Shown here: in pieces, positions 1,068 to 7,302 of the stretch | Numbering within the stretch: the stretch's first letter is position 1 | Layout of the letters: each line of letters opens with the position of its first letter | Source: Tardiphaga sp. | GTDB taxonomy: Bacteria > Pseudomonadota > Alphaproteobacteria > Rhizobiales > Xanthobacteraceae | DNA length: 7,302 nt | NCBI GenBank assembly: GCA_028290765.1 | Contig: JAQGJF010000772.1 | Span: 1 to 7,302, forward strand | Direction of reading: 5' to 3' | Position numbers and translations under genes: made by a program | Notes under the pieces: model-generated | Seen by the model: only the letters and a program-made list of their open reading frames with translations | Databases searched by the model: none | What the model was told of the DNA's origin: nothing

Positions 1068-1096
1068 AACCTATGAACGAGGGCTTGCCGGGTCAA
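1068..1096 (-). promoter_or_regulatory. Candidate sigma70-type promoter for trxA, overlapping the addA stop codon
   Basis: On the minus strand TTGACC (1096-1091) is followed after exactly 17 bases by TAGGTT (1073-1068). The -35 box is a strong match to the housekeeping consensus; the -10 box is weak (three of six positions of TATAAT). The TGA stop of addA is embedded in the -35 box. The predicted transcript would have a leader of roughly 55-60 bases. It is the only plausible promoter I see in the addA-trxA gap, but in GC-rich alphaproteobacteria such matches are only suggestive. Confidence 0.4.
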
Positions 1097-4000
1097 GGAT
1101 GCTCATCCCCGCGAATCAGGGTGGCCAGTCGTGCGTCCAGCGCCGGGGCCGAAATCTCCATCATTTCAGGGGTCTCGGTCCACAGCAGCGCCGCCCGGAC
1201 CGGCCGGTCCGGGTATAATTTGGCCAGTACCGCGCGGTAGAGCGCAAGCTGCCGGACGTAGGCCGGTGGCGCCTGCGCCACCGAGCGCGGCGGGGCGTGG
1301 TTGGTCTTGTAGTAGACGATCAGGATTTCGGCCGGGGTCACCACCAGCCGGTCGATCTGCCCGGAAACCAGCGCCGGCGTCCGTCCAGGCCGCTCCAGCC
1401 GCCCGACAATCGAGACCTCGGCGCGGCTGCCCGGTGCGAACAGCGCGGCAAAGCGCGGCTCGGCGATCAGCACCAGCACCTCCGCCGCCAGCGCCTCGCG
1501 CTCGGCATCGGTCCAGCCGCCGGCATGGCGCCCGAGATAGCGCAGCGCCGCCTCGCGGCGCCGCTCCGGTGCCACGCCTGGCAGGGATTGTAGCAGCCGA
1601 TGCACCAACGAGCCGCGCAGCAGCGCCCGCGCCCGCAATTCGGCCGACTCCCCCGATCTGGCGCCGGGGCTTTGATCGTCGGCAGGGTCCGACGGCCGCA
1701 AAAACTGATCGGCGGACGCTTCGAACGGCGCCGGTGTCCGCAGCCATGCCGGCAGCGCCATGGCCGGCGCGGCCGAGGGAGCCGTCGCGACACCCATGAC
1801 CGGACTGGCATCCTCCAGCCGGGAGTAGCGCCTCACCACGCCGTCCGGCGGCGGCACGTTCTGCATGTGCAGGCCGGAGCCCTCGAGGCCCCTGGCGATC
1901 AGATCGTACCAGGACAATGGCCGTACCTCGTTGCGGTTGCCCGGCATGCAGCCGCCGACGATCAGCCGGTCAGCGGCGCGGGTCATCGCCACATAGAGCA
2001 GGCGGCGGTATTCGTCCTCGGTCTCGGCGATCATCGCCGCGCGCGCCGTGGCGACGGCCGGCGGATCGTCCGCCTTCTTGCCGGCCCAGACCACCACGCC
2101 CGGCGCATTCGGCGCCGCATTGCCCTGCGGCAGATGGATGAGGTTGAGGCGCTGGGTGTCCGCCGGCGACGACGTGGTGTCGACCAGGAATACCACCGGC
2201 GCCTCAAGGCCCTTGGCGCCATGCACGGTCATCACCCGGACTTCGTCGCGGGAGATTTCCATGTCGCGCTTTACTTCGGTATCGGCGGCGCGCAGCCAGG
2301 CCACAAAGCCCTGCAGCGAGGCCGGCGCCTTGCGCTCATAGCCGAGCGCCAGTTCGAGAAATTCGTCGAGCGCGTCGTTGGCTTCGTGTCCCAGCCGTCG
2401 CAGGATTCGCGCCCGGCCGCCATCGCCGCCGAGCAGCCAAGCGTGGAATGTATATGGCGTCTCATGGGCGAAGCGGGTCTCGCAGGCCTTGAGCCGGCGC
2501 AAGGCGGCTTCGACCTTGCCGTTGGTCGCCGCGTGTTCGCCCAGCGCGGTGCGCAGCGAGCCCTGGCGGTCCCACGCCAGTGTGAACAGGTCGTCGTCGT
2601 CGAGCCCGAACAGCGGGCTCTTCAGCGCCACCGCCAGCGCCAGGTCGTCCTGCGGCAGCAGCAGGGCGTCGGCCAGGTTCATCAGGTCGATGATCGCGAT
2701 GTGTTCGGTGAGTTTCAGGCGGTCGGCGCCGGCCACCGGGATGCCGCCGCGCTTCAAGGCCTGGATGATCGCATCGAAGGCGGTGCCGCGCCGGCGCACC
2801 AGCACCAGCACGTCGCCATAGCGCAGCGCCCGCCGCTTGCTGGTCGAGCCGGTCATGGTGCCCGCTGCGATCAGCGACCGGATCTCGTCCTGGACGCGCT
2901 GCGCCAGCCGCACTTCCGGGCTGGTCTCCGACACCGCGTCGAACGGCGCCTGCCAGCCTTCGATGTCCTGCCGCGGGTCGGGCTGCTGCAATTCCCACAG
3001 ATCGATCAGGCTCGGCCCGGCATCGGTGAGCGATTCGTGGATCGGATAGCCGGTCTCGACGGCGTGGATGCTGCGGTAGATCGCCTGGTCGCGAAACACA
3101 TGGTCGACCGATTGTAGGATCGCGGCCCCCGAACGGAACGAAGCGTTGAACGACACCCGATCGAATTTCAGGTCGGCGCCCTCGAACTGGCTCTGCAGCG
3201 ATTTGCGCCGCAGGTCGAACTCGCGCGGCGCCGCGCCCTGGAATGAAAAGATCGACTGCTTCTCGTCGCCGACCGCGAAGATCGTGCGCCGCACGCCGTC
3301 GCGCGCCCCTTCGCCGGTGGTGAATTCGGCAATGATGTGCGCGACGATGTCCCATTGCCGGGGACTGGTGTCCTGCGCTTCGTCGATCAGCACGTGATCG
3401 ACGCCGCGGTCGAGTTTGTAATGCACCCAGCCGGACGAGACGCGGTCCAGCATCTCCAGCGTCTTGTCGATCAAGTCGTCATAATCGAGCAGTCCGCGCT
3501 CGAGCTTTTCGCGGCGGTAATTCGCAGCGACGCCGGTCGCGATCACCGACAGCGAATAGGTCCGGTCGCGCATCGCCACGGCGCGCCGCCGCTCCAGCAG
3601 CGGGCCGATGCGGTCGCATTCGCGACGCAGCGCCTGGGCCAGATCGGGCCGGGAGTCGCCGATCTTCTTGGTCACCAGCGTCTTGCGCGGCGTCATTTCC
3701 GCGGTCAGGAACACGCCGAGATATTCGTCGACCCGGGCGCTGCCGGACAGCGCCAGTGCCTCGCGCAGCTTTTGCGCCTGCTTCGCGTCGGTGACGCTGC
3801 CGGTCTCGAACACGGCGGCGGCGGCTTCCCAGCGCCCGAACGGCAGATGCGGCCCCTCGACGATCTCGCGCTCGACGGCCTCGGAGCTGTCGTCGGGCCG
3901 CACCCCGAGAGCTGCGGAGAGCTGGGCCATCGCGGCATCGATGCTGCCGGCGCGGTCGGTCCAGGCCAGAAACTGATCGCGGCTGAGGCTGGCCTCGCGC

Positions 4001-4596
4001 ACCACGTCGCGGAACGTGACGTCGGCGGCGCTGGTCATGGCGATGGCGAGCGCGCGGCCCTCGGGGCTATGCGGCGCGGCGGCGGCCTGCAGCAGCACCT
4101 TGAGACTGGCGCGTTCCATCATCTCGTTCTGGTCGCGGTCGTCGAGCACGGCGAAGCGGGCCGGCACGTTGGCCTCGAACGGAAACTGCTGCAGCAGGCG
4201 GGTGCACAGCGCGTGGATGGTCTGCACCTTCAGCCCGCCCGGCGTCTCCAGCGCGCAGGCGAACAATTCGCGTGCGCGCAGGCGGATTTTGGCGTCGTGC
4301 CGCGTCACGCCGGCATCGCGGATCACCGCGTCGAGCGCGGCATCGTCGAGCGTGATCCAGTGGCCCAGGGTTTCGAACACCCGCTGCGACATGTTGGCGG
4401 CAGCCGCCTTGGTGAAGGTGATGCAGAGGATTTTTTCCGGCGGCACGCCGTCGAGCAGCAGCCGGACCACGCGCTGCACCAGCACATGGGTCTTGCCGGA
4501 GCCGGCATTGGCGGACACGAAAGCCGATGCGGTCGGATCGGAAGCGCGGGCCTGCGCGGCGCGCACGCTCGGGGGAATCGGTCGCGGCGACGTCAT
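1093..4596 (-). CDS. addA: AddA, double-strand break repair helicase/nuclease subunit, with a substituted nuclease catalytic residue
   Basis: This 1167-residue protein is the UvrD/SF1A-type helicase and nuclease subunit of AddAB, which unwinds and resects DNA ends to load RecA; the length is normal for alphaproteobacteria. Helicase motifs are complete: Walker A A-N-A-G-S-G-K-T (29-36), motif Ia around I-T-F-T-K (59-63), Walker B D-E-A-Q-D (405-409), motif III G-D-E-K-Q-S (443-448), motif IV S-F-R-S (486-489), motif V around V-H-G-A-K-G-L (791-797) and motif VI with A-M-T-R-A (R873). The C-terminal PD-(D/E)XK nuclease domain has H999 (G-S-L-V-H), E1060 and D1082 (G-Q-I-D-R). The motif that should read D-Y-K-T-N instead reads Y-Y-K-T-N (Y1095, K1097), so the second catalytic Asp is missing. 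The ATG at 4596 was chosen over an in-frame upstream ATG at 4620 because it overlaps the addB stop as ATGA and has a GGAGG six bases upstream. The helicase should work; the nuclease probably does not. Confidence 0.96.
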   Translation of the reverse strand: MTSPRPIPPSVRAAQARASDPTASAFVSANAGSGKTHVLVQRVVRLLLDGVPPEKILCITFTKAAAANMSQRVFETLGHWITLDDAALDAVIRDAGVTRHDAKIRLRARELFACALETPGGLKVQTIHALCTRLLQQFPFEANVPARFAVLDDRDQNEMMERASLKVLLQAAAAPHSPEGRALAIAMTSAADVTFRDVVREASLSRDQFLAWTDRAGSIDAAMAQLSAALGVRPDDSSEAVEREIVEGPHLPFGRWEAAAAVFETGSVTDAKQAQKLREALALSGSARVDEYLGVFLTAEMTPRKTLVTKKIGDSRPDLAQALRRECDRIGPLLERRRAVAMRDRTYSLSVIATGVAANYRREKLERGLLDYDDLIDKTLEMLDRVSSGWVHYKLDRGVDHVLIDEAQDTSPRQWDIVAHIIAEFTTGEGARDGVRRTIFAVGDEKQSIFSFQGAAPREFDLRRKSLQSQFEGADLKFDRVSFNASFRSGAAILQSVDHVFRDQAIYRSIHAVETGYPIHESLTDAGPSLIDLWELQQPDPRQDIEGWQAPFDAVSETSPEVRLAQRVQDEIRSLIAAGTMTGSTSKRRALRYGDVLVLVRRRGTAFDAIIQALKRGGIPVAGADRLKLTEHIAIIDLMNLADALLLPQDDLALAVALKSPLFGLDDDDLFTLAWDRQGSLRTALGEHAATNGKVEAALRRLKACETRFAHETPYTFHAWLLGGDGGRARILRRLGHEANDALDEFLELALGYERKAPASLQGFVAWLRAADTEVKRDMEISRDEVRVMTVHGAKGLEAPVVFLVDTTSSPADTQRLNLIHLPQGNAAPNAPGVVVWAGKKADDPPAVATARAAMIAETEDEYRRLLYVAMTRAADRLIVGGCMPGNRNEVRPLSWYDLIARGLEGSGLHMQNVPPPDGVVRRYSRLEDASPVMGVATAPSAAPAMALPAWLRTPAPFEASADQFLRPSDPADDQSPGARSGESAELRARALLRGSLVHRLLQSLPGVAPERRREAALRYLGRHAGGWTDAEREALAAEVLVLIAEPRFAALFAPGSRAEVSIVGRLERPGRTPALVSGQIDRLVVTPAEILIVYYKTNHAPPRSVAQAPPAYVRQLALYRAVLAKLYPDRPVRAALLWTETPEMMEISAPALDARLATLIRGDEHP

Positions 4597-4602
4597 TCGC
4601 CG

Positions 4603-4607
4603 CCTCC
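4603..4607 (-). promoter_or_regulatory. Ribosome binding site of addA inside the end of addB
   Basis: GGAGG on the minus strand lies six bases before the ATG at 4596, within the last codons of addB. It decides the addA start. Together with the four-base ATGA overlap (addB stop TGA 4595-4593, addA ATG 4596-4594) it indicates translational coupling. Confidence 0.85.
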
Positions 4608-6614
4608 GGCCGCGGACCATTCCTTGATCCGCGCCAGATCGTCATAGCTGCCGTAGCGGTTCGACCACATCGACAGATTAAGCGACGTATAGGCGGTGGC
4701 CTCGTCCTCGAACCGGCGAATGAGAGTCTCCAGCTTGCGGCGGGCCTCGTCGGCGGCGGCGTCGGGATCCTGCGGCTCCTCGTTGCGGTCGCGCCTCAGT
4801 TCGAGAATCTTCTCGTCGCCGGGAGGGTTGTTGCCGCTGAGCTTGACGTAGGTCAGTTCGCTGACCGAGGCATGGGCCGGGATGCCCTTGAAGCCGCCGG
4901 CGCGCAGGATCGCGGCTTCCAGCGTGAGCTGTGGCGACAGCCCCATCCGTACTTGTTTGCCGGTCGGCGGCTGGCCGGTCTTGTAGTCGAGGATCGCGAA
5001 GGTGCGATCACGGCGGCGTTCGATCCGGTCGGCGCGCGCCGAGAGGAAGAAGATGCGATCGCCGCCGAGCGGAATCGACATCTCGCCGCGGACCTCGGCG
5101 TCGATGCTGGCAACATTGATGCGCCGCTCGATTTCCCAATTGGCGAACCAGTTGGCGATGCGCAGGAAACGCGGCCACCACAGCGCCCGCGCCTCCGGCC
5201 GCGTCATCAGCGGCGCAAAATGCTTTTCGCCGATCTGGCGCAGTACGAAGGCCGGATCGTCGGGCAAGTCAGTCGGATAGGTTTGCGTGAAATCGCCGAG
5301 CGCGTCGTGGATCGCCGAGCCGCGATCCGCCGCCGACAGCGGCATGTCGACCGGATCGAGCGGAACCAGCTTCAGGATATGTTTGGCGTAGATGGTGTAG
5401 GGATCGCGCAGCCAGTCCTCGATCGCGGTGACCGACAATCGCAGCGGCCGTGCCGCGCGCGGCGGCTTCGGGGCTGGCTGGGCGATCGGCTCCACAGTGT
5501 GCGGGCGATCCAGCGCGTCGGCGTAGTGGACATATTTCTCGCCGGCAGCCAGCGCGGCCTGCCAGCGCTGTTCTCCCGCCACGGCTTCGAGCCGGTGCAG
5601 AAAGCGCGAGGCCACTGCCGGGGCGCCGCCGACCTTGGCGGCGTGGCTCAGGATGACGTCGTCGGCGCCGAGCAGTTGCGCGAAATCATGGGCGGAGAGA
5701 CCAATGCGCCGCTCCGGCAGATCGAGACCGAGCTGATGCCGCATCGGCCGGCTCAGCCACGGATCGATCCGCGGCGCCGGCGGCCAGATCCCCTCCACCA
5801 GGCCGCCGAGGATGACGCGGTCGCATTGCGTCAGCCGCGCTTCCACAGTGCCGTAGATACGCAGTCGCGCATCGGCGACCTCCGGCTTCCGCACATTGTG
5901 GTCGCTGAATGCGGTTTGGAATACATCGGGGTAGTAGCCGAGTTGTACCATCAAGCCGCTGGGCCGCTTGTTCCCGTTCTCGTCCTCCGTGACCTTGACG
6001 AGCAGGTACTCGAACGCTCTGAACAAGGCCTTGCCGTCGAGTCCGAGATATGCGTGAAGCGATGCTTCCTCGTCGATTGATAGTGCTTCTATGATCTCCT
6101 GATGGCGCTTCGCAAATTCAGAGAAATCCATAGGTCTGACGGGATCGATGGCTTCCAGAGGAGCGAGTGCGTCACGTAGTTTGCCGATCAGGGTCGCCGC
6201 CTGATCCAGCTTATCGTTGTCCAGCATTGAGCGCGGCTCCGACGAGTGAATCACCGAAACTTCGCGCCGCCGGAGCTTCACAAGTTCGTCGCGAAATCGA
6301 ACAAAATCTAGTGCCAATCCAGCGCTTCCCGACGATGGTCGAGTGCCGCGCAGCAGCGACAATTCGAGTGCCTCGATCGCGTTCCTCCACGCTCCCGGGG
6401 CGGCGCCGAGCCGGCACAAGGGATGTTTCAGCAGCGCCAACAAGGTTGTGGGTTCCAACTGTTTTGCGGCTGCTTCTGCTATCAGCCGCGCGAAGACGCC
6501 AGCCGACGTGTCCATCAGTTTGTCGCCGCCGGAATCGTCGAAGGCGAGATTCCAACGGCCGAGTGCTGCCATCACCCGTCGAGCCAGTGCGCGATCGGGG
6601 GTCACCAAGGCCGC

Positions 6615-6617
6615 TTA
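6615..6617 (-). other. Premature in-frame TAA stop in addB
   Basis: On the minus strand the codons read CTT GGC CGA TAA GCG GCC TTG GTG ACC. Without the stop this gives L-G-R-x-A-A-L-V-T-P-D-R, which matches the AddB family on both sides. TAA is one base change from several sense codons, for example AAA (Lys), CAA (Gln), GAA (Glu) or TCA (Ser). The stop sits in the five-base loop of a short inverted repeat (GGCCG/CGGCC, 6609-6623), probably by chance. The next possible starts, TTG at 6608 and GTG at 6605, have no Shine-Dalgarno sequence. Confidence 0.9.
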
Positions 6618-7302
6618 TCGGCCAAGTTCGTGCGACTCGCGCATTGCCACAGCAATGGCCAGCGCTTCCATCTCCGGATTCGCGGCAGCGATGACCGCGA
6701 CTTTTTTCATGCCGGCGGAAATTTTTTCCGCAACCTCCGGCTCGGCCAGCCGACGATACCATTGCGCTGTCGCATTCGAGGGCCGCATCGCCTCGGACAC
6801 TAGCGTTTCGCGGCCCTCCGGTGCGGGTATGCCCAAAAGCTGGACGTCGCTACGCCTGATCCGGAACCGTGTGAGCAGCGCATGCAGCGCGAACTGTGGA
6901 TGATTCGACGACGATGACGTTGTCTTACCCTGGTCATCGGTCGAACCGCCGATCAGCTGCCACGCATCGTCATCGAGATCGGTATCGAGCCCCGGCAGCA
7001 CCACGGCCCCTTGGGGTAGGTTGGCGATGGCATGAAGAAATCTTGCTGTCGTTGGCATCGAGCCGGTCGAGCCTGCTGCAATCACCGGGCCGTCCTGATG
7101 CGCTTTCAGCCGGTCGGTTTCCGCTGCGATTAGCAGATCGTGCCGAGCCGCAGGTTCGATCCTTTTAATTTCCTCAAGATGAGCTGGCCACGCTTCTCTT
7201 GCTATCTTTAGGAAGTTCAGCGTCAATTGCCAGTATTTGTCGAACGCGTCCGGCACCAGCCCATCGAGTGAGCTGAAATCGACGCCGCGCAATACCATAT
7301 CG

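Follow-up and report, generated by a model that had tools for sequence, protein, structure and literature searches.

Aspartate-to-tyrosine change in the AddA nuclease motif and an in-frame stop in addB on a Tardiphaga metagenome contig

The sequence analyzed here is a 7302-base metagenome contig of a soil-type bacterium, assigned to Tardiphaga sp. (JAQGJF010000772.1; the whole stretch is called the window), a single record that we took as a lone metagenome record. Its minus strand carries the genes of the AddAB helicase-nuclease, and the AddA encoded there has a tyrosine in place of the aspartate of its nuclease motif. The addA gene, for helicase-nuclease subunit A, lies at 1093..4596 and encodes 1167 aa from the ATG at 4596, or 1175 aa from an ATG at 4620. 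Upstream of it is addB (4593..7301, minus strand), which is cut at its 5′ end by the contig, comprises 902 codons and is interrupted by an in-frame stop. The addB stop codon and the addA start codon overlap as ATGA (4593..4596, minus strand), and the addB-addA order with a coupled start, in which a start codon followed by A falls no more than 36 bases from the aligned start, recurs in 76 of the 80 related loci (the genome-locus set, kept from 295 encoding a relative). Given this arrangement, the ATG at 4596 is most likely the addA start, the 1167-aa form being the one that the protein database also uses, and the changed residue is therefore numbered Y1095 (Y1103 when counted from the ATG at 4620). 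With 1387.8 bits against TIGR02784 (addA_alphas; cut-off 860.75) over residues 22-1156, the protein is a whole-length family member. It has a PDDEXK_1 domain, and its UvrD-helicase and UvrD_C domains score above cut-off. Residues A39, G40, G42, K43 and T44 of the helicase motor motif do not vary across the 30 sequences of alignment A1. The protein database has the window's AddA from one contig, and its 90% protein cluster has four member sequences, of which the letters of the window's own were compared.

The minus-strand codons from 1314 to 1303 were re-read as TAC TAC AAG ACC, placing Y1095 (1312..1314) where aligned homologues have the motif Asp and leaving the rest of the motif, Y-K-T (1303..1311), as it is elsewhere. 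In addB the corresponding motif reads GAC TAC AAG ACC (4988-4977; residue 772 of the partial AddB). Two AddA protein searches yielded 7974 and 1294 matches, and the best 120 of each listed, with the window's own protein excluded, amounted to 184 distinct homologues. H999, E1060, D1082 and K1097 are retained in the window's AddA, and each is identical in 184/184 of these; D1082 (1351..1353, minus strand) is the other metal-binding Asp, by analogy with RecB D1067. Thus far the readings of a preliminary description of this DNA hold, and the RecB-type nuclease centre lacks the acidic residue of (D/E)-x-K while keeping the His, Glu, Asp and Lys elsewhere.

The motif column was then compared in three sets of sequences, which overlap (e.g., L085 and L002 come from one genome): the 184 listed homologues, the 80 genome loci and a class-wide set. 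For the last, 289 genomes of Alphaproteobacteria were searched, 202 scored above the AddA cut-off and 110 AddA sequences were examined, namely 30 delivered loci and 80 chosen rows, of which 40 followed next in rank and 40 came from lower down the list, towards its end. The column was Asp in 184/184 homologues, 80/80 loci and 109/110 class-wide sequences, with Glu in the remaining one, so that all 374 rows have an acidic residue there. The sole Glu carrier, L155, reads E-Y-K-S, and Glu is permitted by the (D/E)-x-K motif. When a degenerate DNA pattern encoding V-Y-Y-K-T-N was used, 0/198 genomes of the family and 0/194 fetched loci matched, whereas its V-D-[YF]-K-T-N counterpart matched 111/194 of these loci, showing that the approach works. 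Tyr as a common alphaproteobacterial variant, a finding that would have undone the preliminary description, was thus rejected for the sequences examined. In a literature search over titles and abstract openings of papers available without subscription, we recognized no report of an addAB pseudogene, or of an AddA that had naturally lost its nuclease, in Alphaproteobacteria.

The identity of the residue was also examined by structure. A profile of 20 nuclease domains (alignment A2) was aligned with chain A of 3u44, a Bacillus AddA, and the window's Tyr fell on residue 1172 (E = 0.071); the score is weak and the alignment is in register (G-x-x-D ... Y-K), with Y1173 and K1174 adjoining and the upstream Asp matched. 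Residue 1172 of this chain is Ala, presumably the D1172A exchange introduced on purpose to make a nuclease-dead construct. Bacillus AddA D1172A is a nuclease-defective mutant (PMC12748557). A structure model of AddA had a mean predicted local distance difference test (pLDDT) score of 78.3, and Y1103 in the 1175-residue numbering was located in a strand (1099-1105) within a block of pLDDT 82. The best four Foldseek matches of the model were AddA chains. VIA-align rows mostly covered 10-931, so that the structural alignment barely tested the nuclease domain. Taken as a whole, the alignments support the placement of Y1095 at the position of the catalytic Asp. Because the column holds Asp or Glu in every sequence examined, aligns with residue 1172 and is the one altered in the defective D1172A protein, loss of the AddA nuclease is well supported as the expected effect, as the preliminary description proposed, and is very likely if the base is correct.

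Comparison with known proteins places the change in context. The alphaproteobacterial AddA P0002, encoded on an 8613-base contig, is 95.5% identical and is alike in whole length, helicase motifs and the other nuclease residues; it has the motif Asp where the window's AddA has Tyr. In the B. subtilis mutant the same column is altered, but there the residue is Ala by design and AddB is present, whereas here it is Tyr, natural or in error, and addB is interrupted. We take D1080 of E. coli RecB to be equivalent to the Tyr column, so that RecB mutants in this Asp are altered at the matching residue of the nuclease centre; these mutants belong to RecBCD, with a nuclease in RecB alone, whereas the system in the window is AddAB. 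H956, D1067 and D1080 of RecB are listed as catalytic (PMC1185551). In E. coli, RecB D1080A abolished nuclease activity and RecA loading, while the equivalent D1118A protein of P. syringae restored damage resistance almost to that of the wild type (PMC2828478). In the same superfamily, the nuclease-like domain of RecC is inactive, its nuclease residues having been lost naturally (PMC1185551), but that loss is old, fixed and reused for a new role, whereas AddA of the window has a single recent substitution.

The stop codon in addB is an in-frame TAA at 6615..6617 (minus strand). Its column holds Ser or Thr in relatives: of the 76 loci extending this far, 72 have Ser and 4 have Thr, and of the 120 homologues listed, 117 have Ser, 2 have Thr and 1 has a gap. 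The parts flanking the stop match positions 148-370 and 378-1024 of the 1024 in TIGR02786 and lie in one frame. The D-Y-K-T motif of addB (4977..4988, minus strand) is intact, with Asp in 120/120 homologues listed, and is downstream of the stop. The TAA thus precedes AddB's own nuclease domain, and the intact, nuclease-bearing AddB that an AddAB complex requires is missing. With the addA start placed on the addB stop codon in addition, little working AddAB would be expected, and from its sequence the operon looks null. TTG and GTG codons begin 7 and 10 bases past the addB stop, and no purine-rich ribosome site was seen in the stretch inspected; restart of translation there seems unlikely. The two nucleases of B. 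subtilis AddAB act on different strands, that of AddB on the 5′ strand and that of AddA on the 3′ strand (PMC4824097). The preliminary description had gone on to suggest an AddAB limited to cutting one strand, and this part we reject because addB is interrupted before its nuclease domain: with both nucleases lost none would be left, without AddB there would probably be no complex, and a one-strand cutter does not follow.

In the 80 related loci, addA was uninterrupted in 80/80. Of their addB genes, 75 were full, 4 were truncated by the end of a contig and 1 (L075) appeared to be frameshifted. One apparent disruption among 80 loci indicates that disruption of addAB is rare in this group. The L075 addB is apparently split over two frames and comes from a metagenome-assembled genome with a title coverage of ~6.

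Outside the two genes, the minus strand of the window also carries a thioredoxin gene along with addB and addA, and an open reading frame at 2-349 on the plus strand resembles the end of another gene. A long imperfect inverted repeat at 425-589, with 32-nt arms that are 91% complementary and an inner 20-nt pair, resembles a dispersed palindromic element; 0/194 fetched loci contained an 18-base piece taken from it. Nothing in an Rfam scan reached the gathering score. PADLOC matched 46 families to AddA, the 25 listed being GajB and RTasHel models on its helicase parts, and 0 families to AddB. Over 4400-7302, a promoter scan found 0, and two terminator-like elements were present against a shuffle mean of 1.8.

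These results point to an ordinary alphaproteobacterial addB-addA operon, from an uncultured relative of Tardiphaga/Bradyrhizobium, that would have taken two separate recent loss-of-function hits: the Asp-to-Tyr change in the AddA nuclease centre and the addB stop upstream of the nuclease domain. From known biochemistry, AddA without the motif Asp would fail to hold the catalytic metal and lose its nuclease, its helicase motifs remaining intact. Without full-length AddB no working AddAB would form, DNA ends would be processed by other enzymes, and AddA would be released from selection. Two hits in one operon fit relaxed selection after the first, and spontaneous addAB loss has been reported in Thermus ppol mutants (PMC9751324). 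A recent and real double lesion of addAB is the explanation that we favor, and we give it slightly under an even chance.

Several observations weigh against this explanation. The evidence is one metagenome contig, and the 80 related loci offer no interrupted addA and, for addB, only the apparent frameshift of L075. Besides the stop, addB has four private changes in columns of 99% or greater invariance, where its peers average 1.11; this is the upper part of the peer range (maximum 7; 28% of 114 peers have at least two). One of the private changes in addB is again Asp-to-Tyr, at AddB residue 456 (5934..5936, minus strand), where 119 of the 120 homologues listed have Asp. Both private Asp-to-Tyr codons, AddA 1095 and AddB 456, stand in the heptamer CTACTAC where relatives would give CGACTAC, a heptamer whose only copy in the window is in the addB nuclease motif. 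Finally, addB is a mosaic (see below), with the stop in an upstream segment that is foreign or chimeric and the AddA Tyr in the other segment, so that the two lesions may not come from one cell.

The strongest competitor is an artefact, in which one or both lesions are base errors (e.g., from oxidized-guanine damage or from a consensus of low coverage) and addB may itself be chimeric, with sequence from two organisms joined near 5800; this we regard as a serious possibility, somewhat less than evenly balanced. In its favor, the Asp-to-Tyr exchange that occurs twice here in a shared context accounts for only 1/365 private changes of peers. In columns of 97% or greater invariance, 3/6 private amino-acid changes can be explained only by G:C to T:A, as compared to 38/365 in peers (one-sided p = 0.02), and the addB stop, which lies outside this count, belongs to that class in the nucleotide test. 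The amino-acid result varied with the cut-off: looser ones gave p = 0.055 and 0.083, and permitting a single other carrier gave p = 0.0125. At the nucleotide level, G:C to T:A changes made up 6/27 against 62/416 in relatives (p = 0.22; p = 0.17 at a second cut-off), only 1/11 within addA, and 2/12 of the addA changes in an earlier count against P0002-P0004. Oxidized-guanine damage is accordingly not established as the cause. Also against an artefact, addA is otherwise inside the peer range: it has two private changes in columns that are 99% or more invariant, compared with a peer mean of 0.64 and a maximum of 5 (16% of 174 peers have at least two), and the second of these, F715Y, is outside the nuclease domain. 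General decay of addA was thus not seen.

The mosaic structure of addB, with an approximate junction at 5775..5850, is apparent from both base composition and nearest relatives, and arose by recombination or by assembly. The G+C content at third codon positions is 0.667 in codons 1-500 and 0.831 in codons 501-902, a difference of 0.164 that exceeds the maximum of 0.140 among 75 relatives (mean 0.024, sd 0.028). The 3′ part is ~98% identical to P0138, and this identity drops to 40-76% over codons 301-500; for codons 1-500, P0121 alone of the 120 homologues listed is close, with 88% identity against 72% for the next best. The composition step is what a chimera would give, but recombination explains the mosaic equally well. 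A plasmid search with the 5′ part of addB gave no match. Since Bacillus AddB reads Chi with its N-terminal region (PMC4027173), the mosaic may possibly reflect an exchange of Chi-reading alleles.

A third explanation, which we consider improbable, is that a real strain retains AddA as a nuclease-less helicase whose motor alone suffices for repair. The helicase domains and motifs of AddA are intact, and in B. subtilis AddA D1172A and AddB D961A, singly or together, supported repair at a nick while the helicase-dead K36A did not (PMC12748557); the restored damage resistance of the P. syringae RecB mutant described above agrees with these findings. Against it, AddA works with AddB, and addB is interrupted; no second Tyr-bearing sequence was found among those listed or scanned; and the E. 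coli RecB mutant lost both nuclease activity and RecA loading. Still more remote, and very improbable in our estimate, is a living lineage that uses AddA as a pure DNA motor, a wild counterpart of D1172A, perhaps together with a 671-residue C-terminal piece of AddB made by restart after the stop. That Tyr is tolerated with the nuclease still active, e.g., by substitution of a neighboring acidic residue, is hardly credible, since no compensating change was seen, F715Y lies outside the nuclease domain and the column is acidic in every row examined.

The window therefore probably holds a broken copy of an ordinary enzyme, as in the double lesion that we favor, or a misread sequence, rather than a new kind of enzyme or system. 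A striking active-site change on one metagenome contig calls for a check of the reads, the partner gene and the uniformity of the contig before a mechanism is built upon it. Laboratory nuclease mutants of AddAB and RecBCD have answered the need for the nuclease differently by species (PMC12748557, PMC2828478). If real, the operon described here would be a wild case bearing on whether the AddAB nuclease is needed in nature.
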